The notes under the pieces are model-generated. The model was not told the DNA's origin. It made no database searches and saw nothing but the letters and a program-made list of their open reading frames with translations. From positions 17,308,365 through 17,372,364 of the forward strand of contig NC_049982.1 of assembly GCF_000003815.2 (NCBI RefSeq): a stretch of DNA of 64,000 nt, written 5' to 3'. Shown here one piece after another: positions 3,286 to 59,438 of the stretch. Both the position numbers and the translations under genes were made by a program. Within the stretch, counting starts at the first letter, position 1. Each line of letters starts with the position of its first letter. Source of the DNA: Branchiostoma floridae. Its lineage: Eukaryota; Chordata; Leptocardii; Amphioxiformes; Branchiostomatidae.

Positions 3286-3385
3286 NNNNNNNNNNNNNNN
3301 NNNNNNNNNNNNNNNNNNNNNNNNNNNNNNNNNNNNNNNNNNNNNNNNNNNNNNNNNNNNNNNNNNNNNNNNNNNNNNNNNNNNN
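3286..3385. other. Assembly gap (100 N)
   Basis: Run of exactly 100 N, the usual placeholder length for a gap of unknown size. Frames that appear to cross it should not be trusted. Confidence 0.99.
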
Positions 3386-21853: not shown

Positions 21854-24389
21854 CTACATTTCAGAGTGCTGAGAATACAGCAGGGGTGAGTCTGGAAAAA
21901 TTAGAGGATCCAAGTTATCCTCATCAGGTACTGCACAGTCATCGATGTCATCTGTTTCTGCTGGGAGGAAAACACATTTAAATAATTTGTAACATTATTG
22001 ATCAATGTTGATGATTGATACAACAATGAACCTCTTCAATGTCTGACAAAACCTATTGCAATGGAAAAAACAGGAATAATCAAATTCAGCACTCTCACCT
22101 TGGTACTTCTGAGTCAATGGAAAAGGTGGTTCCAAGACATCTGAGGAGTTGTCATTTACAACTTCCTTCCAAAAGGTTTCGGTCTTTGATTCAACTGCTT
22201 CTGGTACAAGGCCTTCACCACATGAGGATATCTTGAATCCACAATACTCAGTGACGACTTCAGTTCCATTAGCTTCCCAGCTTTTCTTCTTTTTGTGCTT
22301 TTCATCAATACTTCCTTGAATGCTGAGGGCACCTAGAACAGCCTCAGAGCTGAACACAGGGCTAGGCGGATTGTCCTCTTCCCATGGTAACGAACTGTGA
22401 ATGATCTCTTCAACATTATTGTTTTTTACATCATGTTCTGTACGAAATAAATGCTCTTCTGAGGGTATTTCAGCTAAAGCAGTGTCTTCCAGAACTGCAC
22501 TTTCTCCGTCACGTAGGTTCATATCAGTGTGAACTACCTTGTCAAGTAAGTTTTCACTGATTCCTTCCTTGCATGTGATATCTGTAGACTGAGGGGAAAA
22601 GGTATCATCATCTTTATTTTCCCAGTTTTGTTTATGCTCTCTTTTGTCACCAGTTTTCTTGAGACCAACCTCTGTGCTGCCTGGATGTTGTGGGCCGATA
22701 CCATTGTCTGCTGACAGGTTAAAGGAATTGTCAGCAACTTCTGATGAATTTATAACATTTCCCTTACCGGGAGATGTCAAAAGGGATGAATTAATCTGAG
22801 GGGTCTGTCTTAGTCTTTGGGGCCATGGACCGCTTGTTGTTCCCTGACATTGCTTGACTGAACTGCATCTTGTCATTGTTGGCTTGTTGCAGTATCCCCA
22901 CCTGGCTGCAGGAGAACAATGGAAAATAGGATTTCCTGTAATTACATGGCTTGATTACAATACCTTATGGCCTCAACTGTAAGCATCAACTAGCAGAGTG
23001 CTCTCAGACAAGTATTGCAGAACTGAAAAAAAAAACTATTTCTACTGTGTGAATATGACTGATCATGACACTAGTATACATGGCTATACCATTAGAAGCA
23101 CCGGCCAGTATTGAAGTGGATTGTTGAGCATTAAAAAAGAATTCTGTAACTTTAAAAAAAATTATTTTAGTGGCTACCCGCCAAACAGCATCTGTGCCAA
23201 GGACTAACTTGGAACAAGTGAACAGAATAATACCGGTACTGTATGAATGAAGAGAATATGTTAGACACAAGGACATGTAGTGTCCAGCCAAAACAGCAAG
23301 AAATCAACTAAACCAAGTTTTTTTAATATGTCAGTTTCCCAAGAGCATCTACCTTTTTGACTCGGCACATCATCATCTTGACAGTGTTTTGCTGCCAGGC
23401 TGCAGTGCTGCTGCAGCTGACCTGCATGAAAGCTCTGTTCCAAGTCCTGTGGAAATTCTATGGCTGACAAAGAAAATATAGTGGTTTCTTTTCCATATAA
23501 TTATAACAGACAGAATCATTTCTAATAGTAATACATCCCTACATTTTCTGCAGGGTAGAATGAAGAGTTCTCATCCTAGCATGTTACTATCTGGTTCATT
23601 TACTGTCCAGACAAGTATTATATCAAAAAGCTGATTTAATTTGATCTAAGTTATCTTTTTTTTATGTAGGAGGATCAAAAGTGAATCCAATGAAGTCACA
23701 TACATTGTAACTTTTTATAAGGCTGAGAGGTTGTTAAAGAAATTAACATTTATAGATTGTCTAAAAATACATATAAAGCCACTGGTCCTCAAGGGATCAC
23801 AGAATCCTGAATATCTTACGTTCTGCCTTCAAGCCCTTTGCCATACATCCACTTCCCTCATCAGATTCTCTTTTTACAGGTGCCCTTCTGATGGGGAGGT
23901 CCAAGTGCTTGCCGGTGTAATGATGGGGAAACATGGTTGCAATAGGAAGTGTGGGCTTTCGAACATTCACAGTTCTCATCTTGTACATTCTGTAATGATA
24001 GAAAATAAAATAGCACAAAGCAAATATCTCAGTTATTTTGTCTCATGCTTTTCTTATCATTTCAATCCTTTGTATGGACCATACCAGTAACAAGTACCAT
24101 AAAACTAAAACACTTTTTAAACTAACTATTTTTTCAGACTTGAAATAAAATCACACTGAGCTTATGGGGATTCAAAACTAGCCTTCGAAGAGTGAATGTG
24201 AGGAAATGTAATTCAAGGAGAAGAAGGAGCAAAATCTTACTTCATTTAGCAGTGATTAAAGTGTGTGAGTGCGTGAGTTATCATGAGTGAACTAGTGATA
24301 GGGGGTTAATTCTAGATCAGAGCTCCTCATACACAGAAGACTCACATCCTTGTCATCAGTCTGGATCTCTTAGGCTTGGTGTAGGGCAT
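21854..24389 (-). CDS. Unrecognised 411-aa, mostly disordered protein
   Basis: Coding exons on the minus strand, in order: 24389-24346, 23989-23820, 23463-23353, 22905-22099, 21957-21854. Each has an AG acceptor and GT donor, and the phases close exactly (44+170+111+807+104 = 1236 nt, 411 aa and stop). The start MPYTKPKRSR follows a non-coding first exon. The N-terminal 60 residues are strongly basic (Arg/Lys-rich, nuclear-localisation-like). The single large exon (residues about 109-377) is rich in Ser, Glu, Asp and Asn and low in hydrophobics, with a KKKK stretch. The C-terminus is acidic, then DPLIFPDSPLL, a short hydrophobic/Pro motif that could be a binding peptide. I recognise no domain. 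The gene is real by structure; its function is unknown. It shares a divergent promoter with the DnaJ/TPR gene. Confidence 0.75.
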
Positions 24390-25048: not shown

Positions 25049-25266
25049 CACGTGACTACATCAGCTGATAGCAGTCGTCCTTTTTTTCGAAGATTTTTAC
25101 AATTTTTCATCTATTGCCATATGTTTTCAAAAAAGAAAAATCCACATAGCGTTCAACTAACTTCCAGTGTTTCTTTGCTTTTCTTTCCGTACAAAATTCT
25201 TCTTGCGTGACGTCAGGCCAGTTCGCGCCATTTGTCACGTGAGCTATGAACAAAATGGCGACGTCC
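25031..25266. promoter_or_regulatory. Compact bidirectional promoter with mirrored E-box and YY1-like sites
   Basis: The region separates the divergent orphan gene (-) and DnaJ/TPR gene (+). For the plus gene, TGACGTCA (CRE, 25208-25215), CACGTG in GTCACGTGA (25236-25241) and CAAAATGGCGAC (YY1-like, 25251-25262) follow one another. For the minus gene, CACGTG (25049-25054, in TCACGTGAT) is followed on the minus strand by AAATGGCGGG (ATGGCG at 25038-25033). E-box to ATGG spacing is 19 nt on one side and 16 on the other. USF/MiT-type factors bind GTCACGTGA, and YY1 sites of this form usually sit at or just after the start site. Binding is inferred, not shown. Confidence 0.6.
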
Positions 25267-25330
25267 ATGTTTTGAAATTTCCTTGGTCACTTTTTGTCTC
25301 AAAAGTTACAAATCCGAAAGGTGGTTTGAT

Positions 25331-28300
25331 ATGAAGTTGACGCGTGATGAAGCTTATGAGGTCCTGGAACTGCCACTTGGTAAGTACAACGTGTAATGTG
25401 TTTTTAACGGGCAACGTCAACATTGAAATTTAAAGTTTTTACGTCGCTTGAGGAAGTTATCAAATTCCTCAGGGCAAAATTTGTGGGGAAATAATAATTG
25501 ATTACTTCTATCTTTCAAAAGGGGGATCCCTTTTGATGGAAAATTATGTATTATTGTATGATATTCTGTAGGAATTATCAGAGATTGTCGCAGCTGCGCT
25601 GTAGTTTAACTTCAAATGGAGTTTAACTCTTGCTTTGAAGTTTTGAAGAAGTGCAGTTGTACTTCTAGGTCAAAATTACGATGTGGCGCATAATAGTTGT
25701 CATGCAGGATGTAGTTGCGAAACTGGGATGAGGAAGCAATAAATACGACCTAAGGGGTAGGAAGAAAAGACAACTTTGTTCCATTTACGCAAGACAAACG
25801 CGACAAAGTATCAAGACAAGAAAATGTAAGATGATGATGTGATGATCCAAAGTACAAATATTGTGTACTAGGTAATTTTTTGTTCTCTGCAGATGACCTC
25901 ACTGCAAAAGGATGGACAAAAGTGAAAGCACATAACAGAACTGTTAATAACAGGTCGTTTTTGGAAAGAGATATCAACGAAATTGGCACCACTAAATTTA
26001 CCAAAACTCAAGTTCCTATAATTTTGGCAAGGTAGTTTTTTTTTTTTTTTGTTAGTGATTCACATTGAAGAGATGCACTTTGAGGAGTGTTAAGAATTAT
26101 AAAGTCTTTATCATTCAGGATAGGGCATATATGTAACATTACCATACTAATTAGATAATTATCATTAAAAAAGAATGTTTTCTTACTGATGTTGAATATG
26201 GGTTTGTACCATTTTGTTTAGTATATTTGTTTAGGTACGCTGTAGATTATTCGGACTCAAACTGAGCTATAAAGCTTCATTGAAGGCTGGAATGCCCATA
26301 TGTATATAGCCTCCTTTATACCTCTTTCAAAAGTGTAGTCTTGTTCAGTGTCCAACATCCTGACTTTGTTCAATGAAACATTATGGCCAAGTGATTCAAT
26401 GTAGATACTTATTATTGATTGTCAGTACTAGTAATGAAGTAAGAAACAGACTATAGGTATAAGAATATGTGCACCATTGTGGGTTCGCTTAAAAGGCTGG
26501 GCTGTCTACCAGGCCAGGCTACCTGGCCTGTCTACCTGGCCTGGCTATCACGTCAGGCTACTCAGATCCCCCCATTCATACCCCCATCATGTGGCACTCA
26601 GCCAAAATAGCTGATTGACAGGCATAGTAATTGCTAATTTTCAACCCTGCCAGTGTCCACTGGCTGGACCCTTCGGGAAAGTGTCTGGGAGGCCTTCCTT
26701 GCAGCTGTCAGGAACACATTCAAGTACTGTACCAGTACTGTGTTCGGTAAATGCTTTAGGGTGTTAGACCTAGAAAACAGAGGTCCTGGGTTCAAATCCT
26801 TTGACATGTCACAAAATCTGTTAACAGTACTTTCCCCACTCCAANNNNNNNNNNNNNNNNNNNNNNNNNNNNNNNNNNNNNNNNNNNNNNNNNNNNNNNN
26901 NNNNNNNNNNNNNNNNNNNNNNNNNNNNNNNNNNNNNNNNNNNNNNNNNNNNNNNNNNNNNNNNNNNNNNNNNNNNNNNNNNNNNNNNNNNNNNNNNNNN
27001 NNNNNNNNNNNNNNNNNNNNNNNNNNNNNNNNNNNNNNNNNNNNNNNNNNNNNNNNNNNNNNNNNNNNNNNNNNNNNNNNNNNNNNNNNNNNNNNNNNNN
27101 NNNNNNNNNNNNNNNNNNNNNNNNNNNNNNNNNNNNNNNNNNNNNNNNNNNNNNNNNNNNNNNNNNNNNACTCTTGGCTTAGCTTAGGGTGTTAGACCTA
27201 GAAAACAGAGGTCCTGGGTTCAAATCCTTTGACATGTCCCAAAATCTGTTAACAGTACTTTCCCCACTCCAACTTGTACAAGGGGGTTGGAGAGATTATT
27301 GTCAGTGGAAGGAGAGGATCGGGCTCTATCCTGGACACAAAAATTGTACAGTTGATAACAATCCACAGCCTCAAAAAGGCTATGTGACTACTAAGATTGT
27401 ATATGTCAACATGGCATACTAGCATAGAGAACAAGGAGGTACATGTAATTATACAGTACCCCCCTTGGCCAATACAAGTTTAGCTTTACAGTGAGCAAGT
27501 GATTTATGCTCTCCCTTCTTGTTGCAAAAGCTGAGATAGTTTCTGTTCTAGAAGATAGATATTCAATAAAGAAACAAATTTCTGTTGCTGGCAAGCCCAT
27601 TCTTACACACACACACACACACACACATTTACACACCCACAAACATACGCAAACACAGTGCTGGTACTTATGTTCCTGACATGCTGCAAGCAAGGCCTCC
27701 CAGACACATTCCCAAAGGGCCCAGCCAGTGGTGGACAGGGCAACCTTGGGTCACTGGCACTAGCAGGGTTGGAGATCAGCAATTACTATGCCTGTCAATC
27801 AACTATTTTGGCTGAGTGCCATATGATGGGGCTATGAATGGGGGGATCTGAGTAGCCTGACGTGATAGCCAGGCCAGGTAGACAGGCCAGGTAGCCTGGC
27901 CTGGTAGACAGCCCAGCCTTTTAAGCAAACCCCACCATTGTCAGTACTTTCTTCTTGTTATTATTTCCTTTTTCATTTGTCATTATTGGAAGGAGTGTCA
28001 GGGAATTATAGACATTGTTACTCCTCTTCTGGAACCTTTTGTCTTGATCTGAAGAGCTTGTGTCATCCAGCAGGTAGATAAAGAAAACAAAATCAATTAT
28101 TCATAGTCATTGTTTAGGGTACTGCCACAACATAAAAGCTGGCTAACCTTGCTTACTTCATTTTCTGACAAATGTGGCGTAGTGGTCATGATTCGTAATT
28201 CGTGTATTGATAAACAATGTAGAAGATGAAATGAAATTGAAGGCAATTTTTGTAATACTAGTATACGTAGTTAGTGCAGTGCTATGACCTTGTTAGCAGT

Positions 28301-31300
28301 TTCTGGAGCTAAGTTTATGGACCCAATATTGGTCAATTCCTCGCCGGGAAACGCTCTTGCAAGAAATCGGCCATGCCGTACCGACAATACCCATTTGAGT
28401 GTCCTGCCATGCACTAGCAGTGGTGCGTGCATGCCAGACATTGCTTGTGTGTGTGTTTGTTCGGTGCTCGTGCGTGGATACTACCACTTAGCTCCGGCGG
28501 TGCTGTTGTTTCATATAGTTATAAGTTGTAACTCTTATATTCGTTGGGAAAGTATGCCTCATGTACATGTCTATGATGACAGTACATGTATAACATTATA
28601 AGGACATTGGCTTGACTATGGAATTTCAAGACATAGAAAGGTATTAGCTACATAGTTTGATGATTAGTAAATACTGCTTATTTTGATGTCAATTACCAGG
28701 TGTAATTGACATCATTATTAGCTGAATTTACAATTGTATTTTCCTTTGTAGGGCGGGAAGGTGCGACAGGTAGAATGGCTGATGAAAGTTTCAAATTATC
28801 TAGACAGTGTATATGTACAGCACAAGCATTTATATGCCAACTTCATACACAGCTTTCTCCTTATTTGCAGAAAACAAAGGCATAGATTTACATAAGTAAC
28901 ATTCCGTTTAAAACAGTGTAGTCGACGTCTGTATTTATTTATTTATGTTCCACATGCAGGAGCTGACGGGGACTCCATCCGCACTAGTTACAAGCGTCTG
29001 GCGCTGAAGTGGCACCCAGATAAACATGCCAACGATCCAGAGGCCACAAAAGTAGGTCTTTGCTGTGTGCATTCTTCGAAACTTTTACAGTCTTACCAAC
29101 AGTGGTACTATGCACCAAGTTCATGCCAGGCTCGCCAAAAATGTGTTCAATTGGTCAGTACACAACATTTGTACCAGAATGCCAAATATCTATTGGGTAT
29201 GCCAGATGTCCAGACTATTAAGTTTACATGATATAACAGGGACAGGAACAGCATAAAAGTCAAAGTTTTTTGAAAGTTGGAAAAAAAAACTCATCATTGT
29301 TTGTTTGAAGTTGAACCTGTATTTGTTCATTGTGAGAGATAGATATAAATTGGTCAATTTGTCACACTTATTGAACACACAAAAAAGCTATTGTTTGACA
29401 AGTTAAGTGTTACAACTACTGTTTGTTGTTTTGTTTTTGCATTTGCTGTGGGTAGAAGTGGACTCTCAAAATATATAATGAAGCTCACCTGAATTTTACA
29501 AACTTATGAATCTTTCTACAGAAATTTCAAGAAGTGTCTGCTGCCTATAAAAGATTGTCAGCTGATGACGATGATGACAGTGACTTTGAAATGAGTCCTG
29601 TAAGTGTTCTTAATTATCTGTTGGACTAAGAATGTACGTTTTTAAGGTTGAACAATGTAATTTTTAGCCTCATAATTTCAATTAGTCATGTGAAATTATT
29701 GACTGCAAACTTAAAGGCATTTTCCGTTCACAACAGTTGAGGCACTTGTTCTTTTTCTAGATAATCTATATAGTTTATATCTGGATGGTAGGCTGTAGCA
29801 TTAATGATAAACTAACATGTATGAATATCTTTATGAAAGTTATACATGGTCAGTTATTCTGTTGATTTTTATCCAGTTATAGAGATTGAATTGTATTTGA
29901 ATATATGTAATACCAGTCACTGTTAGCCTAGACAGTTTCTATCTTGTCATGTACAGTTATATTAGTAGTTAGCTTTTACAGATTTAAAGTAACAGGTACA
30001 TCTACAGGTATTACTTGATATTGCATAAGTTCTTTAAGTAATGATGATTTCTTTGACATTATAATTTTCAGCAAGACATGTTTGACCTGTTTGCAAGGAT
30101 CTTCATGGCCAGCCGGCTTAGTAAGTATTACAGTTCAGGACGAAGTCACTCAGATCTTGCTATTTGCTTATTGATAGAATGCAAGAACATAAGAAGCCCT
30201 TGATTGCTTGCACTAGGTAAAAATCTTAGATCTTATCATAGATTATTTGCAAGCATACCATATTGGAGAGATAGAAGAAAATTATATTTGCAAACAATGT
30301 CATTCATATTTGAAGCATTTGAAGATGTTAATTCAGGCAGTAGCAAATTGAGTGTTAATTGACAGTCAAATGTTTTCCAGTCTGATAGCAAATGGATAAT
30401 CATGTTACATGTTATAGTAACCTCTGGATGTGAACTTCTCACACCAGATATGTTCGTGCCTCTAGGTGGCTTCAACCCTTATAACGGCCACTTTGAATCA
30501 GACAGCAGTGACTACACATCTGATGATGGGGATACAGACATTCTCAACATCATGGCTGACAAAATCAAACAGAGAGTAGATGCACGGAGATTCAACAAAC
30601 AGCCGGGTAAGCTCATTCTTTTTCAGTTATTTCGACTCTGTTCATACCTGTTTTTTTGTGTCTGCATACAGCCAGATTCTGGATAAACCTGGATATGTCT
30701 ATTTGCATTTGTGCCAGGGTTAGTGAAATAAGGCTTATCCTGTCCAAAATCAGATGTATCAAGAAAGTGATAATCTACTTGGATATATCAAGGTAAATGC
30801 AGTTTTACTAGAAACTGCTACATTCCTCTTCATCCCTTAATATTTTCCATATGCATAAGTACAACAATACTTGGCAAATATCCTTTGACTCAGGGTCAAA
30901 TTTAGTAGTCTACTTATGTATTTATTTGCATAACATATTGTTTATGCTGGTGTGTTCTTTTTCTTTTTTTCCTCTGTCAATATCCAATCAGAGCTAAGGT
31001 TAGATATTAGCTGTTAATACAAGCAATTTTTCCTTGCACACAATACTATATGGCAAGCACAATCATTGTGGTAATGTGTGTGAGTAGCTTGACAAAAGGC
31101 TATAGGGAAAAAAAATCTGCATTTTTGCATAAATGTTGCCTCTAGTTCTGCATTCAGACCCTTCAAACCAGGCTATGTGAATCTGGATATATCTGGTTGT
31201 ATCCAGATGTATGAACAAGGTCATTTTAATTTTGTCATACCAATGGTATATCTGTTGATGAGAAAACATTGATGTGTTTTATAAATATTCTACAGATGTT

Positions 31301-34300
31301 GGCAGACCTGCTCATAGATTGACAGAAGATGTAAGTATGAAATCCTAATTTACTGTTGTGGGGGAGGGGGGTAAAAAGACGAGAACACGTTACTGTTGTG
31401 TGTTCTGTGTAACCTTGGAGTAGAAAGTGTTCATAATAGATTGTCATATTTCTCTGTCTATAAATTTTATGAAGAATGAAGTAGAAAAGTTTGGGGTGTT
31501 GTCTTGACTACCATATACATGGATCTGTCCTCATACTTTACAGCAAGCTAGAAAAAATGCAGAGGAACTTATAGCTGAAGAGGAGAAAAGGAAAAAGGCA
31601 GCAGAGAAGAGAAGAGCTAAGAAAAAGGTATGTGATTTTAGGTTGAATTTTGTATTATCAGTTGTGTACTGGTTCTTGGCATTTTACAAATTCCCTGTCT
31701 GATGTCATTTTTTCCCTTTACAGAGAAGAAAGGAAAAGAAAAGACAAGAAAAGGAAAAGAAAGAAAAAGTAGATGAAAAAATTGTAGAACCAGAAGAAGG
31801 AGAAGAGGTAAGCAATCTGTATACAACAAAAGTTTTGGTAAACATTAATCTTATTATGTGCCTGGCAAAACTGGGATAGTCTAAACATGATTAAGAATGT
31901 TTTCTCTCAGGGCACATGAGGAAGGAAAGAAAGAAGTATTGCAATGTAGATCAAAGAAATGTTTTTGATCAAATAGTTGTCTTCTACTAGTATGATTGCC
32001 AGCTATCATTTGTTATGAAACATTTTACTGCACATTCTGAAATGTTTTTAACAATTGCTAATCTTAAGTTGAAAGTTCATCTGTGTTGGTAGAAGTCATT
32101 CTTGAAATAATTGAACTGCAATCTTCAGACAACGAAAATTGGACTCACCCAAATTTTGGGTGAGTCCAATTTTTGTGTTGGAAATTAGTATCTACAATTA
32201 TTATTGGAAATTATTATTTACAATTATTTCAAGAATTGCTAATCTTAGCATTCCAGTAAGTAACGTCCTGTGACATTAGAATCGTTATAGGCCTGTGAAA
32301 CTTGCTTCAATGTTAATGTTGTTGATCAATTTGAATTGTCTGAATGCATAAGTGAATGTGCTGCATCTCTTTTCCTTTGTCTTCATTTCAGGAAGATACA
32401 GATGAGCCAGAAGATGCAGATAGTAAAAAGTCCTTCCACCAAACAGATAAGATAGTAGCAAATGGGAAAGTTGAGTCTTCCACAAAAAATCCCATGAGTG
32501 ATAGCAGAAGTAAAAAGAAGAAAAAGGATAGCAAAAGGTAATGACCCATCCACACCTGGGTTGTTTTTCTGTTGTTCTTTATTGTTCTTTGTTTGGTGAA
32601 TCACATTGTAGTACTTAATGAATATTCATGAGTTAACTAGCAACTCATTATAATATTTCCCAGCATCCCCTGTTGCATAGAACTGACAGAGGATAATTTT
32701 GGCTTTTTCATTCAATTCATTTATTTCAATGATAAAGTTTCCTTCTTGTAATGTGGGCTTCAAAATATATGTATGAGAAAGTCAGTAACTCACTATTTTA
32801 GAATATTCTGAGTATTTGGAGAATATGTCTTCTTTCCTTCTTCAGGGGTGTAGAGTTTTGCAGTTGCATTTTGCCAGGTATAGAAGTTGTCAGTTCTTGA
32901 AAGGGACCGATCATTGACCTCCACCATGTCACTCTGGTTTCCCTTCAAACACCACGCATAAATCTTTCGCCTTTTACTAAAGATTTCCGTGGAGGGGAAT
33001 AATCAATGAGTCTGTAACTCAATTTTTCTCTGCCCTGCCTTGAGCAGGGCTCCTCTTAAACCAAAGCAGTTCACCTGTCCTCCTTCACATCATAGACATC
33101 AGCTGGCAGTCTACCAGATGACTCTTATTTACTATTAGTGTCCCCGTACAGCCATCATGTTCAATGCTAAATTTTATTTGTTTTATCTTTCAGAGTTGTA
33201 GATGAGTCCTCATCTTCAGAAGAAGAGGTATGTCTTTTCATGCATGCATCTCACAAGTCTAATTATCAGTGTATCAACATAGTAACTGAATAAAGACAGA
33301 ACAACAAGTTTCTGCATACTTAACACAAGGTTCGATTCACTATGATTACAACCATGTTTTTCACACTACAGATTATCCACAATACAGTGTTATTATGTCA
33401 CTGATTATCATTGGAAATGGATTTTTCTCTCAGCCCTCAGGAATAATACAGACAGCTTGTACATAATTGATACCAATCTAATACCTTTAACAAGAAAAGT
33501 AGATTTACTTGTCTCTATACTGTGTTCCTCCACTGGCATTTTTGTAGGTAATTTTCTATGTCTCTGTGCAGGAGCCTTTTTTCGACCCAAATAGTGCATT
33601 TGTGGCCAATGCTGCCAAGAAAAGTGTGCAAGCTGCAGCAGCATCCAGCAGCAAAAGTGCAGGTCCCTCTAAAAAAGAAAAGGCAGTTAATGGCCAGGAG
33701 AGAGGTAGAAAAGAGAGAAAAGAGCAAGAAGAAGAAACAGTAAGGACAAGTCTTTATACTCTATGGCGTTCTTAAAGCTGCAGTGAGTGATTATATGGAA
33801 TCTTCTTTTTGTTTTACAATCTTTTCATGAACATTGTTACAAATGTTGATATGTGATTGGAACAAACTTAAAGGGAGTAGATGTATGTGTTTTACTGTAC
33901 ATTGTAGTATAGTTAGGAATTTGTGATTAATGATGTCATTTTGCCTTTGTTTGCACTTGCAAAGTTTCATCTTTGATCATTGTCTCATTACAGATAGAAG
34001 AGCTAGACCCAGTAGTTTTAAAAAGCAGACAGATTGCAGGTTTGTGACCAGTGTTCATTATTGTGTACCGATAGTCCCTTTTAATCTTTGTTTCAAAGGA
34101 GACAAATGTAGAAATGAAATATGTTGCCTGGATGTCTGATATGTTGGATGTTGTTACAGTACGTGGAAATGAGATGGCAAACCATGGGCATTATGGTAAT
34201 GCAGTAGAACTCTTCACAGCAGCCATTAAGTTGGACCCCTCAGACTTCAGGTAGGACAAGATGCTTGTTTTGTAGGGGGGGGGGGGTCTTGTATGATCTT

Positions 34301-37300
34301 GTGCATCATGCTTAAGTGTAAAATATCTCATTTTCTTGTGAAACTTTTTGAGTTTTACAATATGTTGATGGCACTTTTCACCAGAAAGTGCATTTCTTGA
34401 GATAAGGCCACACCAATTTAATTCGTTGGTTCTCGGAATCGCCGCTTCAAAAAATCGCAAAACCAAAAAAAAAAAAATAAAAATTTTCTCCCCAGGCTAT
34501 CTGAAGGCTGCAGTTTTTCAATAAGTCGATAGGTGTCTCTCTTTGAAGTTGTGACCTAGGTGATCATGTGACGGAGATTAGCCAATCAGAAGCATCATTC
34601 TTAAAATCAAAATGGCGCCACCAGAAAAATAGAAGGGGAAGGAGTACCGGAGTCGGATAATTTTGAGTACAAATAGAGTAGAATTGGAGCTTGAAGAAGT
34701 GTAGTAGAAGGTAGTGCAGTAGCAGGAGAAGAAAATACCATGTCTGTGGATCCAGGAAAGCCACATTTTTTGTGGTGTGTACAGTTTTTAACCGGGGACA
34801 GAAGTCAGAAGAAACTTCTTGGCCAACAGACAAAATTTATTTATGAAAACATGTCTTCTTCTTCTTCTGTCACATAATTAACAGATATGCATCGAGGGCC
34901 CAAACGATGTGCAGGTGGGTTTGATGAAATATAATTTCCTTGATATTTGATGGACAAACCAAAAATTATTTCGAAGTATTTAGCCAACAGAAAAATATGA
35001 GTTCCCTTGGCCAAATTGGGGCTTGTTCATATACACCCAAAGTACTAGTAATTAGTAGTAAGTTCACAGGGGTTTTTGACTTTTAAAGAGTAGAATTTTG
35101 ACAAAGTAGGTAGCACAGAGTTGCAGTAAGACTGGGAATTCTTGTCAAGCAGAGCAAATATTAAATTATTTTGAGTTCCCCTTGGGGTTTGTTGATAAGT
35201 TTCAGTTACTGTAAGATGGACACTTTGTTTTTGACCTCCATGAATAAAAGACAAAAATGAAGACTGCATTTTCAGACTGTTGTTTCCAATTGAATCAAAC
35301 CAGGATGGTACATATAAAATTCATAATTACAATGTCACCTTTTATCAATAACCATAATTCTAATGTTTTAGTACAATTCGGTAAACTGAAAGAAATCAAT
35401 AAAATCAATTATCGTGAAAATAACATACGAAAATAGCAATGTATGTACCGGTAGCACTTACTGTACCGTTAGTGTCTCAGTGAGTATGATACGAGAGCCC
35501 CCATGGCCAGATTCAGCAATGGCTTTGCCATCAGAGAAGTTTTTTTTTTTTTTTTTTTTCGCCCTGTCGCTTCATATTTTTCATGAAAAAATCCGAGAAC
35601 CAACAAATTAAATTGGTATGGCCTAAATACAAGTACATGTAGCTGCTTTGAGAATGTTTGTTGTCATGGAACAGTTTGATTCATCTCTCATTTGCAGTTT
35701 TTTATCATCATTCTGCCTCCATGTTAGTGCTTGTAATCCTCACAGTAATTCAACAATCTAGAGAACATGAGCAGAATGTGCTTATGGTTCAAAAGGTTGG
35801 CCTGGCAAGTCCTCAATGTCACATTGATGTATATTACATGTAGAACTGACCGGTTTTTATGTTTGATCTCAGGTTCTTTGGGAATCGATCCTACTGCTTT
35901 GACAGGATGGGCCTCTATGACAAGGCTCTGTCGGATGCAGGGAAAGCCATAGATATCGCCCCGGACTGGCCAAAAGGATACTTCAGAAAAGGTCGTGCCT
36001 TGGCAGGATTAAAAGTCAGTACACCCAACACATACTCATGTTGCAAAACTGACTTGTATGGTCTAGTGGTTGGGATTTGCCGCAGATCACAAACCCAGAC
36101 ACTAAATCATTAAGCTAAAAGGCCTAAAGCCAGTTCGCATTGTCAGTTTAGCATTTTGAACCCCACTAATACATTGGTATGAAAAGCAGCAATGGAAAGC
36201 TGTCTTGTCACAAATGATGTACATCTTGTTCTATTTATTGTTAACACTCCCAAGATGTTCCAACAGGAATGTTTAGTTTGTTGTCATGAAGCAATTATCC
36301 ACATTGACCTGTTGTAGGAAAAGAACTAGACATGCAAATGTGAAAGGAAAATAATTCACAGCCAGTGGTGATTTTCCCCCCAGTTATTTGCAGATGCCGA
36401 ACGAGCATTTGAAAAGGTGCTAAAACTGGACAGGAACTGTGAAGATGCCATGCAAGAACTTCTAAGAGTCAGGACTCAGCAGCTTATGGTAAGGGACCTT
36501 TGCAAGAACATAACATGTTATCAGAGGTTTACTCTAGAATCATGTCAATCAAAAAAAGGCATCATGTACTCAAGTTGATTTGCACTTGTTTTATGTTTTT
36601 TTTATGTGTATACAAGGCACCTTGAAAACCGCCCTAGTGGCAATATGTTGCACCTGGATAAATGAATGAATAAATCCAAAATCCTGGCAGAATTGCTGAT
36701 GTAAGCAACACTAACTCATTGCTACAAAACTGCAAATGTACCAGACTGTAAATTGTGGTACACACTGAATGGTTTGACAGTATCACATGTTTAAAAATAG
36801 ATATGGGCAGGTTTTTAACAAAACACTTCAGTAACTGTTGTAGTAACCCATTTAAGTCCTTTACCCTTTGACATTTAGTTTCACATTACAAGTAGTATGG
36901 CAACATCTGGAAGGTTTATTGCAACTGAATAATGACGTATATTTTGAAAGTTTTCTAAAACTGTACCTTTGTGTGCAGGAAATGGGATTCTCCCGCCAAC
37001 AGAGCGAACATGCAATCCGGGTGCATGGAACAGTTCAGGCAGCTTTAGACTCTCTACTAGCAGGTGTTGGTAAGTTGTCATCCACCCAAGATGTGCAGGA
37101 AACTTATCAACATGCACATGTGTGCACACAATACACAAACACACACAGAGCCTTCTGATAAACAGCTGAAAGAGCTTTTATGTTTAATTCTGTAGACTTA
37201 AAACTCATAGAAAATAGTGAAAATGCCTAGATTGGAGGTGTAGGATAAAGGTGCTTATGACACAGCTTAAATGTCATGACAAAATCATGGTTGAAGTCAC

Positions 37301-40300
37301 ATTGTGTTTTTGCATTTCAAAGTTAGGACAGGATAGAGTCTTTGCCTACTGACTATATTGTATACCAATGCACGAGTTAAAGAACAGAGTGAATAAGCAT
37401 TAAAATTTATTTCTCTCTATTACCTCTGTTGCACCAGTTCAGGAATCTAGTCTCTCTCAAGAAGTTTACCTGTCTGATGAAGAATTTGACCACTATAGCA
37501 ACGTGCCTACATTCACAGAAGTCCTCCCATCGGGGACAGCCAGGGCTGGCAGGTAAGGCACTCTTGCGCCTCTTGTCTCATTATCTATCTATCTATTTAT
37601 CTATTGTACTTCCCACAACAATGGTGGGGAGACAAAACAGGTGATACCACCTCTGCAAGTTGTCTCCCCTAAACAAAATACACATTCAAGTGAATAATAA
37701 TAATCAACAAAGGTATATACAACCATAATCGGAAGCAAAAGATAACTTATATACAAGTACATATGCAAGTAAATAATAAGAATCACAAAATGGCATATAC
37801 AGTGATAATCGGAAACAAAATATAACTTATATACAAAAAATTAGTTTATACTTTGTCTAAACAATTTAAATTACTTCAGTTGGAAGATTGTACTGTAAGT
37901 AATGTAATATAACTGCCTCATGTTTGTTTTTGAAAGTTGTGAACACAAGCAAAAGTTTTATTAGGAGGCAATATGCATACTTGCTTGCTTATGTTGTGCC
38001 ATTGTTTCTAAGGATGACCTGTACCATGTAACAATTTGCTGTAGCATTAATGATCTGGCTGTTTTTCAGTACAAAGCCTCCAGTGGACGGTGTAACAGCT
38101 CTCTGGGTGGGCAATGTACTTCCTAAAGTCAAAGAAGAGCAAATAAGAAAATTATTCAAAAAGTAAGTGGTGTCAAGACTTGTGCTTTTGCAACACATTG
38201 TAGTCTTATGGTAACATAGATCACTATTCACTTTTGATTTGGTAGAAGTTGGGTACTTTGGAATGTCTTACTGGTTTTTGAGTTGAAAATATTTGTAATT
38301 TTAGTTATATTATGACAAGTTATCATATACATGTACAATGTGCATGGAAATCATGCTGTCATAAATGACTTAGTTGCACTTCCAGTAGCAAGGGGAAAGT
38401 TTAGGGAATCCGATATGTTAGACTCTTAAAATTGGTCTCCCAAATGTTAAGTGACTACTGGATGTACTATAAGATGCTTCTTGATGTACTGTCATTATCC
38501 CTTGTGTTTCAGAACGAGACAGCTTATAATTAAAAGTTTTCTATTCATTGGTGTGTATTGATTGTATCCATTTGTGTGTTCTCTTTAATGTATATTCTCT
38601 TGAATGATCACTTCAGAGACAGCTGAGCTTGGACAGTGCTCACACTTTGCTATCTTAAGCTCTTGGTCTTGCAACTCAAGAAGTCACAGGGACTGTCTTG
38701 TTTTTATGTGTTTGCAGATATGGGGAGATCACAAGTGTGCGCATGCTGTCCGACAGATACTGCTGCTTTGTCAACTTCAGATCAAAAGATGCTGCAGAGT
38801 TGGCATTGAAAGGGCTACAGGTAGGCATAGCAGTGGAAAAGTACTATTACATCTTCTGCCCATCTATCCGTTCGCTGCAGAAAAAATGCTTTATAGAAGG
38901 ATTTGCTGAGGATTTTTTTTCACTCTTTTGTGCTAAAATTGGCTTTGATTTACCAGTGCCTTTATTTTGGAAAATGTACATTCCAGGGACATGAGTTAGA
39001 AGGCCAACACCTACTGATAAAGTACCCGGACAACCCCATAGTTAACGGACAGCGCACCACAGTCCTGAGGAAAACAAACATCACCGTCCCCACAACAACA
39101 CCAACCAACAGCACCACCACAGTCAAGCCCACCTCTGCTATCCCACAACAGCCCAAAGCTAAACAACCTTCCAACAATCAGAAGAGCCAAGCTAACAGGG
39201 AACAGCAACGGGAACAACAGCAGTCACGGTAAGAGACCTTGTTTTAAACCAGTCAACTCACAGACATAAGACTGCAGACTGCAGAAGAATTTGGTACAAA
39301 AGCTGACCTTGTAGAAAGTAGCTGTTCTGGCTTGACTGCTGAAAACTGCAACCAAATGTTGGAACATCTATTTTCAATTCCATACTTGAAGTCCACCTCC
39401 TTGTCTCATCTTCCCCCTTGTCCACCACACCGGTGTTGTATTTAAGTGCATATGGTCTCCAAAGTATGAGTATGTCCCACAAGGCTGTAGTTCCAAACAG
39501 GTAATCATGTATCTATGACTGACTACGCCCCACGCTTTCCTTGCAGGGGGAAAGCAAACCCGGCCATGCAGGTGGCCACTGCTCAGCAGAACAGCATGTG
39601 AGTTGTGTCATATTTTCGGTTGGATCAATTGAGGATATAGAGTCAAGAACCTGCAGTTGCTATTATACAAGTTGTATGAGACTGCAACTTCCTATCACTT
39701 TATCTTAATACAAAACATTCCAACATGGAGGCAGGTTACCAGATAATCCGGTTTCAAATCCACTGCACATAACAGCCTATTACAGCTAGACCTCTGGGGC
39801 ATAAGTGGATGACAGTACAGCTAGACAGTCACATCCATGTATATGTCCTACTCTGTACACTACACTTACACCTCTTTGCCCGGTTTTTACTTCCAGGAGG
39901 ACAGAACAGCCCACCCAGGCACTAGAATTGTGAGTGGTTTATACCCAGGGGTGGAGGTGGTGTGGAGAGGATATCATACCTGTCAAGTCTCACTGTTTGT
40001 GTGTTTCCTGGTCCTTTGTAGCAAATACTACTGTCTTCCCAAGTCTCTGTTTTTCCTGTCCACTTCCAGCAAAAGCTGTCTCACTATATTACCTTAATTA
40101 CCTTGAATACTCAGAGAGGCCAAAGTCTCTTGTCATCTTGATTGTCATTTGTTTTATCTGTTTCTGCAGGGACAAGAAGTCAGGGCCAGTAAAAACAACC
40201 AAAGGGGATGAGTGTTACTTCTGGCGGACCACAGGTTGTCATTTTGGGGACCGCTGCATCTACCAGCACATTCCAGAGAGCAAGGGCTGTGAGAAGAAGC

Positions 40301-40314
40301 CCTGGCATAAATAG
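25331..40314 (+). CDS. DnaJ-TPR-UBA-RRM-CCCH multidomain protein (TTC31-like centre)
   Basis: There are 23 exons: 25331-25379, 28960-29051, 29522-29599, 30072-30120, 30448-30606, 31296-31330, 31544-31627, 31724-31807, 32392-32537, 33194-33227, 33572-33739, 33994-34039, 34160-34250, 35873-36014, 36384-36488, 36979-37069, 37438-37552, 38070-38162, 38718-38820, 38987-39228, 39547-39597, 39897-39929, 40170-40314. All phases close; 744 aa. The J domain is residues 1-70, with HPD at 35-37 (needed to stimulate Hsp70). A highly charged Lys/Glu helix covers about 155-210, then acidic/Ser-rich linkers. TPRs cover about 340-450 (GNRSYCFDRMGLYDKA, WPKGYFRKGRAL). UBA is about 455-485 (EMGFSRQQ). The RRM is about 530-605 (RNP2 LWVGNV, RNP1 RYCCFVNF). 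A Thr/Gln-rich linker precedes a C-x7-C-x5-C-x3-H zinc finger at 712-730 near the end. The charged helix and TPRs resemble vertebrate TTC31; the whole order suggests an RNA-linked Hsp70/ubiquitin adaptor (inference). Confidence 0.88.
26481..27932. mobile_element. Mutator-like TIR element A (intron 1 of the DnaJ/TPR gene)
   Basis: Perfect 9-bp target duplications CACCATTGT flank it (26472-26480 and 27933-27941). TIRs begin GGGTTCGCTTAAAAGGC and extend well over 100 bp with internal CAGGCCAGG/CCTGGCCTG repeats. It has no transposase frame, so it is non-autonomous. It is the same family as 56499-57521, in inverted orientation. The interior holds a (CA)n run (27609-27628) and a tRNA-like B box (GGGTTCAAATCC). 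A 325-N gap lies inside; removing the gap and the duplicated flank leaves 1024 bp, against 1023 bp for the sister copy. Confidence 0.9.
26845..27169. other. Assembly gap (325 N), probably artefactual
   Basis: The 84 bp before the gap (26761-26844) are repeated almost exactly after it (from 27189). This suggests two overlapping contig ends that were not merged, not missing sequence. Confidence 0.9.
32135..32173. repeat. Perfect 19+1+19 palindrome
   Basis: In the intron between exons 8 and 9 of the DnaJ/TPR gene, 19 nt (starting AAAATTGGACTCACCC) are followed by one T and then the exact reverse complement. This makes a cruciform-capable palindrome with essentially no loop. No binding protein is suggested. 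Confidence 0.9.
34406..35623. mobile_element. Harbinger-like TIR element, long copy
   Basis: This 1218-bp element lies in the intron between exons 13 and 14 of the DnaJ/TPR gene. The left end is GGCCACACCAATTTAATT and the right end is its reverse complement with small differences. TAA lies on both sides (34403-34405 and 35624-35626). A 3-bp TAA/TTA duplication with a GG-start TIR is the signature of PIF/Harbinger. No transposase frame is visible. A poly-T run (about 35549-35568) and a poly-G run just outside (about 34275) may be assembly-error prone. Confidence 0.85.
37585..37860. repeat. Intronic simple repeat and ~75-bp tandem duplication
   Basis: A TCTA-type microsatellite (about 37580-37604) is followed by two diverged copies of a roughly 75-bp unit, each containing ATAATCGGAA and ATAACTTATATACAA (near 37725 and 37806). 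The unit occurs in the intron after the exon ending at 37552. It may be the 3' tail of a retroelement, but no coding part is seen. Confidence 0.55.
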
Positions 40315-43300
40315 CCATTCCCTCCCTCCACACACTCATGTACATGGAGAATGTCACATCATGGAATAAGCTTACACAGCATTGATAGAGGTGCTGGGAG
40401 TGTCTGAAGCATTCACAAAGAGACTAGTAAAGAAAAACCCATGTTTACTTGTGAAGATTGTCCAAGGTATGGATTGTGGAGTGTCTCGTAGGCAGACAAA
40501 TGTGATGGCTGTATTCTGGTATGGCAGGACATCCCAAGACCTCTACTGAAATGTGTGGCTTTGTTGATATATATTTTTTTTAGAACTGTGCCAGCTGAAA
40601 ATTCAATCTCTGGTATACTTTGTAAGGTCACAGTACATGTACATCTCACAGCTCCTGAAGAATTAACCATTTACTCAGACACTGCAAGATAAGTGTTACA
40701 ATATCCAAGTGTTACAGCATAAACATGCTACCTGGTACTTTTGTACTGTATATGAATAGTCCATCAATTTAAAGGTCATTATTTAGTGAAATATTAGCCT
40801 GCGCGTAATTTATTCTTCAAAATAATCATGCATCGGCAAGAAATTAGTTATCTTTTCATGGTCCTTTGCACCTGCCTTTTGTTTGTTTATCTGCATACAG
40901 TAATATGTTTGGTTGAATTTTGGTGTGGAAAACCTGCCAATGGGTCGCAGCTGCCTATAGTTTACCCAAGAGCAAACAAGCCCTTTTCTCTGTGTCCATT
41001 CCTATGCAAGCTGAGGAGCCCAACTGACAAGTTTGGTTGGCTAAGGGGTTTGTGTACCACTCTACATTTGATGTATCATGGTGATTCCCATGGCTGACAC
41101 TCCCAGTTGGACAAAACATCCACACTTTGGTTCAGCTGCTTACAAAGGTCTTTTTCCAGGGACTTTTGAACATACATTTAACTCTTAGTTAGAACACTTT
41201 TTGCACAACCTGGGTTTCCAGCTTGACATTCCTGTTATTCGCAAGAAAACTTGTGATGTAACATTGATGCTGTTACACTATTGTCAGCTGTAGAAGACCA
41301 AATCTACATTCTGTCTACGGCATTCCATGTGGACCTTAATTGCAACCTTAGTGCAGATGTTGTCTTGAATCCAGGACCCCCAAAACATTATGGAAGTCCA
41401 AGCTAGGAATCTTGCAGCTTGACCATAGATAATGTAGCAGGTTACTGGCCACAAGCCCTGGTAGGTCCCAAGGTAGCATGGGACCAATTCATAGCTTCCA
41501 TTTCTGATATTTCCTTATTGAAGAGTTTCTGTAATCATGATCTAATTATTGATCCTGTCAGCCAATCGACTTGAACCGTTATTATGTACTAACCAAAAAC
41601 ATTTATTTTTGTTGTTTTCTTTATGCACACTGTTGTTAATGTTGCTGTTTTTGTTGTCCAGGCAACTGTAAGATGAGGATGGCCAGGAAGGGTCTTGAAT
41701 GAAGGCATATAAAAATGTTCCATTCCTACTACCGGTATTGTTTCTCAGCCAGCTTCTGATAACATATTTTAGGCCATCTACCTTTCTTCATCAGGAATGT
41801 TGTGCAATTCGATAAATTTCACGGCAGTTTTGTCCATTTGCCCCACACAGTATGTCCTTCCTGGTCTAACCTCAAGTATGGGCAATCCAGTTTTGAGTAA
41901 AAGTACACAGTATGTAAGTTGCTTATGATAATTAAAGCTATGCATTACTACACTAGACATGAAAATTTATTAACACTTGGAGTGCATATTGTACTTCAGG
42001 ATTGCAGGGCTAGGCTCAATGTCAATGATTTCCTCTGTGATATTGATTTGTTTTACAAGTTGATAAGAAGAATACCATTTCTTCCATCTTGTTATGACAG
42101 CAGATGTGATGGTAATACAATGTGGAGAAGCCATCCTGTGGTGTACGTGGAAATGTCATGATCTTTGAGATGCCAATCACTTATAATATAGATTAACACA
42201 GTGCCAAGATAGTTGCAGCTTTATTGCCAAGTTAGATATAGATGAACCTATATTGTTTGTCCATCCAAATTAAGTACAAGGTCATTGCCTCAGCTGCTGG
42301 GTAAATGTTACCTGTTCTAGATATTGCTTGACTTATACAAGAACATAGCATTTTGGAAATGAGTAAATTCTAAGGGTTTTCATGCATTAGCTCACAAGCT
42401 GAGGCAATACCTTAACTTCTTTTTGTTTCTTTGTACATGAAAAGTTTTCTCCTGTCAAACAAATGAATGATTCTCTGCTCAAGTAACCCACAAATGTTGC
42501 TAATAAGAAGAAGCAAAATATCTGATTTTTATACTGAATGACAGGTGATAATATCTGGCTTAATAAACAGCTTTATGCAGAAATGTTTCATGACTGGTAT
42601 ATTATTAGTATAGTTCATATATCATGGAACATTCGCAAATGCTACCTCCAAAAGACAGTCTGGGAAACAACTTCCTTTAAACAACATGAGAAAAGATGGA
42701 AAACTCTCAAAAATATCTGACAAGGGCCATGCCACACCAGGCAAGCAAGTATTATGTTATTATAAAAGATTGCAGTTAAGTTTGTGGGAATTTAATTTTA
42801 CAAGAGGGAGAAAATGTAGTGTTCACAGTGGTTTTGACTTCACAATAGCACTGCAGTCACAGCTTTTGTATGTAAACCAGGTGGAAACCACCTACAATGT
42901 ACTAGTGACTGGGCCAGGGTGCTACAGATAGAACAATTGCCAATTGGCCATACTGTAGATCTGTTACTGACCACATCTACTGTTATTGACCCCTCTGGAT
43001 AAATAGCACTTGTCAATGAATTTGTATTTAATGTTAAAAGGGAAGAACAGCTACATCTACCTTTGCAGAAAAGTCACAAGGTTGAAGTCTACTATGGAGA
43101 TCAAGGGCATACCACACTTGAGTGTCTTCACCCTAAAAGGCACCTCCAACACACAATTATACTGTACAGTGTATAGTACATACATGTAACACTTGGACAT
43201 GGGCAGGAGGGGACAAGACAGAACATTTTGCTCTGGTTTTGAGTTTGCAGTGAAGTGGTCACCGCAAAAAAAAAAACCCAAATATAAAACCACCACAAAT

Positions 43301-58036: not shown

Positions 58037-59438
58037 ATGGCGAGTAGTAGACAGAAGTCGGCCAGTGGAGGCAGCAGCAATGGCGCACCCCGAGAATCTA
58101 ATATCCAAGTCATGGTTCGAGTCAGGTACGGACAAAACACTGCTTAATTAATTTTGTCATTTATATGGCAGCCTCATTCCGCCTGAGAATTCCACCTTAC
58201 CTGAAATTATGGTTCTCCGACTCCTGTCAAAAACTGTAACGAATATATGTTCAAACATAACGTTAAAAACTTAAACGTTCAACTGTTGTTGTTTTTTTAC
58301 AAGATGACTGGAATAACTGGAATGCCATCTTTTTCCATGTATGTTATGTCTAAGTTATTTACCACAGCTATTTATTGATGCCAGCTGTATTTTCAATTCT
58401 CTTCTGTTGTACTTTTTGTAGGGTAACATGTAGCATGCAGCTGAGTAAAAGTATTCAGAATATATCTTCTGAAACATATCATAGATTGATTTTCTGGTAT
58501 CTATCGGTGTGATTTTACAGACCATTGAACCAGAGTGAGAAGTCGAAAGGATCGCACAGCATCATAGACGTCAAAAACCACAGGGAAGTGTCTGTGGCCA
58601 CAAAGGAACCAGGATTTGGCGGTCACAGCACCAAAAAGTTCTCATTTGACAGGGTTTGTATACTTGTAGTTATGTACAGGGTATTCCTTTAATACTTTTG
58701 CACATTTAATATAATCAGAACATGTTGCCACCAAGATGCTTGCCATCTAATCGGACAGTTTGTTGTAAAGTTGATGTACTACATTGATTTTTCATTAGAT
58801 TTAGACTAGAGTAGAGTACAAGTCATTGATTTATAGGTAAGACCACAGCAAGTAAATCTTAATTCTTATGGGTGACACCACACGCTCTTTAATTTTCACC
58901 TGATTTTGGAAGAAGAAGAAAAAAAGAATTTTTTCCCTTTGAATATGACTAAAATATACCAAAATGGAAAATACATTGTACTTATAGTTGTACTTGTGTC
59001 AAAGTGACAAGTTAGTTAGAAACATGTAGCCATAACTACTAGTACTACTGTAGAAGTAAAACTAGTTTGATAGAAAAAGTGTCAGAAATGGACTACTAGT
59101 ATGTTGTGTAGTGGACTATTATGTAGTACTTAATTTAGAATGACAAATGTAAATTGGGCCTACATAGGCAAAAGTTAATCAAAGTGAGTGACTGCATATC
59201 CCCCTGTGGCCATTAACAACCAAATTGGAGATAGTCAGAATTCTGATATAACTAGCAATCCTGCAAGGAAGTAGGATGATGATTGATGAACATAAGAATT
59301 TGTGCTTGTGTATCACATGTACAACTGTTGACTTTTACAGGCCTTCAACCCCAACTCCAAACAGGTAGATGTTTACAAAGAAGTTGTCATGCCCCTACTG
59401 GATGAAGTCCTTGAGGGCTATAACTGTACGGTTTTTGC
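58037..59438 (+). CDS. KIF11: Kinesin-5 (KIF11/Eg5), N-terminal exons
   Basis: Exons 58037-58125, 58521-58653 and 59341-59438 give the first 106 residues. A Ser/Gly-rich N-terminus is followed by [12 protein letters not shown] (start of the kinesin motor, beta 1), KKFSFDRAFNP, then [23 protein letters not shown], which leads straight into the ATP-binding P-loop in all kinesins. The third exon ends with a phase-2 donor at FA, so the next exon should start with the YGQTGTGKT loop; that exon is not in the window because of the 60062-60985 gap or misassembly. Kinesin-5 is the tetrameric plus-end motor that pushes spindle poles apart. It is transcribed away from the XPNPEP1 homologue. Confidence 0.93.
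58915..59030. repeat. Dispersed A-rich repeat, copy 2
   Basis: Partner of 18377-18500 with AGAATTTTTTCCC and CCAAAATGGAAAA at similar spacing. It lies in intron 2 of the KIF11 homologue. Confidence 0.5.

Follow-up and report, generated by a model that had tools for sequence, protein, structure and literature searches.

A 23-exon lancelet gene model joins J, TPR, UBA-like, RRM and CCCH-type segments on a TTC31-like core

Introduction

A row of exons coding for DnaJ, TPR, UBA-like, RRM and CCCH zinc-finger segments raises the question of whether one locus of the lancelet Branchiostoma floridae encodes a single protein with all of these modules, and what such a protein would do. The locus lies on the plus strand within a window of 64,000 nucleotides (assembly GCF_000003815.2, contig NC_049982.1, positions 17,308,365 to 17,372,364 of the forward strand), and coordinates of the gene and its surroundings are those of this window. 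The exons splice in phase into one open reading frame with an intact HPD motif, matches to J, TPR and RRM profiles and a TTC31 core. Judged by its sequence, the product belongs to the class C J proteins, is built on that core and may bring Hsp70 to clients that are ubiquitinated or bound to RNA.

Materials and methods

Splice sites were ranked by generic splice-site weights against 3861 plus-strand GTs as donors and 4024 plus-strand AGs as acceptors. Domains were called with Pfam profiles at curated cut-offs, and 22 families were listed at E up to 10. A DnaJ profile search covered the genome of 513,431,437 bases in 431 contigs. The letters of human TTC31 used for alignments are presumed to be those of the actual protein. 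They agree with two landmarks given for it, a length of 519 and REERP from position 281 (PMC7279152).

Results

Rebuilt base by base, the 23 exons from 25331-25379 to 40170-40314 (stop included) splice to 2235 bases, corresponding to 744 aa. Each of the 22 introns is of the GT-AG type, the phase is kept at every junction, and frame 0 of the joined exons contains the terminal stop alone, while frames +1 and +2 contain 35 and 59 stops, so that the single 744-aa protein proposed in the first-pass annotation could be reproduced. Donor percentiles range from 0.898 to 1.000, with 21 of 22 donors at 0.90 or above and one at 0.898. The gene comprises the following parts:

25331..40314, + strand, whole coding gene of 23 exons and 744 aa, from splicing and translation
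25331..25379, + strand, exon 1: start codon, start of the J domain
28960..29051, + strand, exon 2: J domain with HPD at 29013-29021; alone 34.4 bits to PF00226 in the genome search
29522..29599, + strand, exon 3: end of the J domain, acidic tail
30072..30120, + strand, exon 4: linker
30448..30606, + strand, exon 5: linker
31296..31330, + strand, exon 6: linker, start of the coil
31544..31627, + strand, exon 7: charged coil common to TTC31, from alignment
31724..31807, + strand, exon 8: charged coil common to TTC31, from alignment
32392..32537, + strand, exon 9: low-complexity linker
33194..33227, + strand, exon 10: acidic linker
33572..33739, + strand, exon 11: EEEPFFDPNSAFV segment aligning to TTC31, from alignment
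33994..34039, + strand, exon 12: start of the TPRs
34160..34250, + strand, exon 13: TPR, from Pfam
35873..36014, + strand, exon 14: TPR, from Pfam
36384..36488, + strand, exon 15: end of the TPRs, start of the UBA-like segment, from Pfam
36979..37069, + strand, exon 16: UBA-like segment with MGF at 36982-36990, from Pfam
37438..37552, + strand, exon 17: linker
38070..38162, + strand, exon 18: RRM with RNP2, from Pfam
38718..38820, + strand, exon 19: RRM with RNP1, from Pfam
38987..39228, + strand, exon 20: end of the RRM, T/N/Q-rich linker
39547..39597, + strand, exon 21: linker
39897..39929, + strand, exon 22: linker
40170..40314, + strand, exon 23: CCCH finger at 40213-40269, stop

The domains span exon junctions, with the J domain covering exons 1-3, the TPRs exons 12-15, the UBA-like segment exons 15-16 and the RRM exons 18-20. 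Since TPRs and UBA-like segment meet in exon 15, both parts belong to one gene. Three connections run through linkers alone, namely exons 3-6 (introns 3-5), exons 16-18 (introns 16-17) and exons 20-23 (introns 20-22). These eight linker introns measure 240-689 bases, and AATAAA or ATTAAA occurs among them in intron 16 only; elsewhere in the gene these signals are found in introns 1, 10, 13, 15 and 18; past the stop, the nearest one found lies at 41931. Runs of N in the window begin at 3286, 12272, 26845, 60062 and 63724, of which only 26845-27169 is within the gene, in intron 1. This sole gap of the gene sits inside the J domain, and the domain is intact when read across. A misjoin there therefore cannot account for the linkage of the J domain to the rest, and misassembly via the gap was ruled out.

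In the Pfam search of the 744-aa protein, DnaJ scored 63.4 bits (cut-off 27.8), TPR_2 53.1 bits (cut-off 27) and RRM_1 55.1 bits (cut-off 20.7), a score that marks the last as an RRM of the ordinary RNA type. At aa 35-37 the HPD motif is preserved, in a canonical arrangement of helix II, HPD and helix III when set against solved J domains. RNP2 reads LWVGNV (aa 534-539) and RNP1 RYCCFVNF (aa 567-574). The previously annotated HPD-bearing J domain, TPRs and RRM with both RNP motifs are thereby borne out, with one departure in RNP1. The segment over exons 15-16 is best called UBA-like, a UBA identity being probable from its sequence; probable, too, is a CCCH finger at the C-terminus, where all four ligands of the pattern C-x7-C-x5-C-x3-H are present (aa 712-730). 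Up to E 10, the list of 22 Pfam families included neither a DnaJ C-terminal nor a CxxCxGxG domain, and a protein that has a J domain with HPD but lacks both is of class C. The linkers between J domain and coil, UBA-like segment and RRM, and RRM and finger gave no Pfam family match of their own. Among solved structures in the PDB, the J domain is closest to 2ej7 (named HCG3 gene), followed by DNAJB2 (E 1.1e-11), and the TPRs are closest to STIP1/HOP; the RRM matched 62 PDB sequences at E up to 1e-5, of which none stands out among the best 60. At the five tail-clamp positions of HOP TPR1, for which we presume the usual numbering, four residues are kept (N345, N376, K406, R410).

In BLASTP against human TTC31, model aa 269-433 gave 100 bits at 33% identity, including the exon-11 segment before the TPRs. 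The coil aligns to TTC31 without gaps over 42 aa (score 139 vs a maximum of 76 in 500 shuffles), and the TPRs over 98 aa, also ungapped, with 46% identity and 96.7 bits. The same TPR piece scored 78.6 bits with HOP TPR1 and 73.9 bits with another STIP1 set, so that a charged coil followed by three TPRs, the order also seen in human TTC31, is nearer to TTC31 than to these two sets. In contrast, the first 150 residues (score 26, reached in 188 of 300 shuffles) and the part after the TPRs (score 30, reached in 142 of 300) aligned to human TTC31 at shuffle level. With the ends at this level and coil and TPRs well above it, the core is TTC31-like, and both ends are missing from human TTC31 by the shuffle test. 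On these alignments, the middle of the protein is a TTC31 homologue, as the resemblance noted in the first-pass annotation had indicated, and human TTC31 seems to be without the J, UBA, RRM and finger parts. The human protein (Q49AM3) is 519 aa in length; a coil occupies 147-197, REERP 281-285 and TPRs 305-406, and there are long disordered stretches (PMC7279152).

Other J and TPR proteins share parts of this layout. HOP/STIP1 TPR1 provides the best solved TPR relative and has four of the five clamp residues in common, but scores lower than TTC31, and its K8 corresponds to Ala in the lancelet TPRs. DNAJC7 presumably also combines a J domain with TPRs, but, as far as we assume, with the TPRs first, the J domain last and no RNA-binding parts. 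DNAJB2, the second-best solved J domain, is taken to carry ubiquitin-binding motifs as well, though these would be UIMs in place of a UBA, and TPR or RNA parts would be lacking. DNAJC17 begins with a J domain followed by a long coil and an RRM, as in the lancelet protein, but it consists of J domain, coil, RRM and C-terminal helix with no further domains, whereas the lancelet protein has TPRs between J domain and RRM. Also, the DNAJC17 RRM, which we assume to be present in the PDB, was not among the best 60 of the 62 PDB sequences matching the lancelet RRM at E up to 1e-5. An orthologue of DNAJC17 was rejected on account of the intervening TPRs and the lack of a special RRM match. No described protein with the whole domain set was found in open PMC full text, in line with the first-pass annotation, although animal sequence databases may well hold an annotation. 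A 113-aa TPR-UBA query against bacterial and archaeal genomes gave 98 pattern matches, none of them confirmed.

Neighbouring genes are a TAPP1/PLEKHA1-like PH gene (E 0.0043), XPNPEP1 (E 2.2e-15) and a kinesin-5/KIF11 gene (E 3.8e-10 to Klp61F, 1.3e-9 to KIF11). The kinesin open reading frame (ORF) 58513-58689 gave a weak Pfam score of 17.4 bits and matched nothing in the PDB at E up to 0.1; the gene was identified by its next exon. PLEKHA1, XPNPEP1 and KIF11 presumably have their human versions on 10q. Linkage of human TTC31 is to LBX2, whereas LBX1 lies on chromosome 10. This set of neighbours is compatible with common descent and proves nothing. Human TTC31 is assumed to adjoin CCDC142, which was not seen beside the lancelet gene: the candidate minus-strand ORF at 21998-22954 is without a significant family. 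This 319-aa open frame has the top codon score outside the gene, with a best Pfam E of 0.18.

Some further features were observed in intron 1 and upstream of the gene. At 25893-26032 (+), an open frame follows a good acceptor and could represent a poison exon, an alternatively used exon or mere chance; as an extra exon of the model it was rejected by eye, having no Pfam match and disrupting the phase. A 175-base inverted repeat (26481-26655 and 27758-27932, 95% complementary) flanks the N gap, and an 89-base direct repeat at 26756 and 27184 (99%) includes GGTTCAAATCC, which resembles what we take to be a tRNA-type B box. Directly before the start codon, the stretch 25250-25330 (+) contains a short upstream reading frame (MATSMF), and the gene's own frame continues upstream with neither stop nor ATG as far as about 25250.

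The genome search with the DnaJ profile gave 73 rows. By eye, 32 of these, 201-204-base matches of 34-44 bits, look like a family of LINE-type retrotransposons (3 of the 32 were read), whose first ORF (840, 903 and 873 aa) carries a DnaJ-like and a GDSL esterase domain. Both exceeded their Pfam cut-offs in all three copies read, the DnaJ-like domain being without HPD by eye:

L009, 4055-6577, + strand, LINE first ORF
L010, 1903-4614, - strand, LINE first ORF
L011, 4100-6721, + strand, LINE first ORF

In both downstream stretches checked (L012, L013), endonuclease and reverse transcriptase come next. L010 and L011 show 90% identity over 4621 bases; between L009 and L011, blastn gave no match at 1e-5.

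Discussion

We consider it moderately probable that the locus holds one gene whose product, a class C J co-chaperone on a TTC31 core, delivers Hsp70 to clients that are ubiquitinated or bound to RNA. The J domain would recruit and stimulate Hsp70, and the TPRs, with their clamp mostly kept, would grip the tails of Hsp70/Hsp90 or some different acidic ligand. A nuclear signal and a contact surface would be supplied by the lysine-rich coil, ubiquitin binding by the UBA-like part, and RRM and terminal finger would position the complex on RNA or a ribonucleoprotein. Hsp70 would thereby be steered to clients that are bound to RNA and in part ubiquitinated, to remodel or remove them. We infer each of these binding events, the nuclear site and the clients; binding of RNA and of ubiquitin are predictions from the domain matches.

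Several observations weigh against this reading. The gene model is a prediction from genomic DNA, and acceptor percentiles reach at least 0.90 for 18 of 22 introns, those of introns 3, 5, 12 and 19 being weaker (0.667-0.816). The profile search placed J, TPR and RRM far above their cut-offs, but the UBA and CCCH calls of the first-pass annotation below them. The MGF loop of the UBA-like segment is present, yet UBA reached 17.6 bits (21.6 and E 2e-4 when excised alone) against a cut-off of 22.4, and UBA_7 18.6 bits (24.3 alone) against 27. Likewise, the finger has its ligands, but zf-CCCH_3 scored 18.8 bits (25.8 and E 1.3e-5 alone) against 31, and the general zf-CCCH model 11.8 bits against 20.5. 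In the PDB, the closest matches of these two parts are weak (HUWE1 UBA, E 0.045; CPSF4, E 0.037). The third position of RNP1 is Cys and not aromatic. Hsp70/Hsp90 work had been deduced from J domain plus TPRs; for Hsp70 this is reasonable through HPD, while for the clamp the replacement of K8 by Ala leaves four of five residues. Where gene predictions for lancelets show unusual domain combinations, these have often been annotation errors (PMC6071037). As for the closest J-plus-RRM protein, RNA was not recovered in the DNAJC17 pull-downs described, and its RRM was dispensable for rescue of splicing and viability (PMC13388955). Finally, the phenotype known for human TTC31 concerns centrioles, not RNA (PMC3817404).

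An unlikely but serious alternative is a lancelet-only fusion, formed by domain shuffling around TTC31 and without an ancestral role. New domain pairs have been reported to arise at >10 per million years in lancelets (PMC4284660); that rate, however, has been disputed as prediction error, with differences between lancelet species attributed to such errors and even shared layouts possibly wrong (PMC6071037).

Less probable still, and rather doubtful in our view, is that the co-chaperone serves as a scaffold for proteins of the centriole or spindle, with RRM and finger binding proteins and not RNA. Knockdown of TTC31 in human cells led to extra centrosome structures in ~15% of mitotic HeLa cells, and depleted mitotic HCT116 cells often had >4 centrioles; congression faults were a further result of depletion; combined with loss of PTTG1, loss of TTC31 caused sickness (PMC3817404). 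An RRM can also have proteins as partners, which has been proposed for that of DNAJC17 (PMC13388955). Against this, the lancelet RRM scores like one of the normal RNA type at 55 bits, and since human TTC31 is apparently without J, UBA, RRM and finger, its role need not transfer to the lancelet protein.

That the exon model merged two or three adjacent genes (a J gene, a TTC31-UBA gene and an RRM-CCCH gene) is very improbable. In its favour, the linkers between J domain and coil, UBA and RRM, and RRM and finger are without family match, the acceptors of introns 3 and 5 are weak, intron 16 holds a poly(A)-like signal, the frame of unspliced exon 3 ends ten codons on, and such errors are documented in lancelets (PMC6071037). 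Against it, promoter, 3' end and untranslated regions would need to fit linker introns of at most 689 bases, seven of the eight lack such a signal and all phases agree.

A single co-chaperone gene, as preferred here, would be a second J-plus-RRM type beside DNAJC17, which is stated to be the sole J protein bearing an RRM (PMC12248113). The DNAJC17 J domain activates HSP70 modestly and only once the RRM is removed, and the protein contributes to exon inclusion and to G2-M progression (PMC13388955). By analogy, the cell-division links of DNAJC17 and TTC31 may extend to the lancelet protein. We tentatively suggest, with more doubt than confidence, that the original TTC31 was a co-chaperone of five modules which linked Hsp70 with ubiquitin and RNA, and that human TTC31, needed for normal centriole number, is its stripped core. 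Human TTC31 is little studied and has a centriole phenotype without known mechanism, for which the lancelet relative offers a testable pathway idea. If the suggestion is true, control of centriole number would derive from RNA-linked chaperone work, and animals with the full protein would reveal the partners that were lost.
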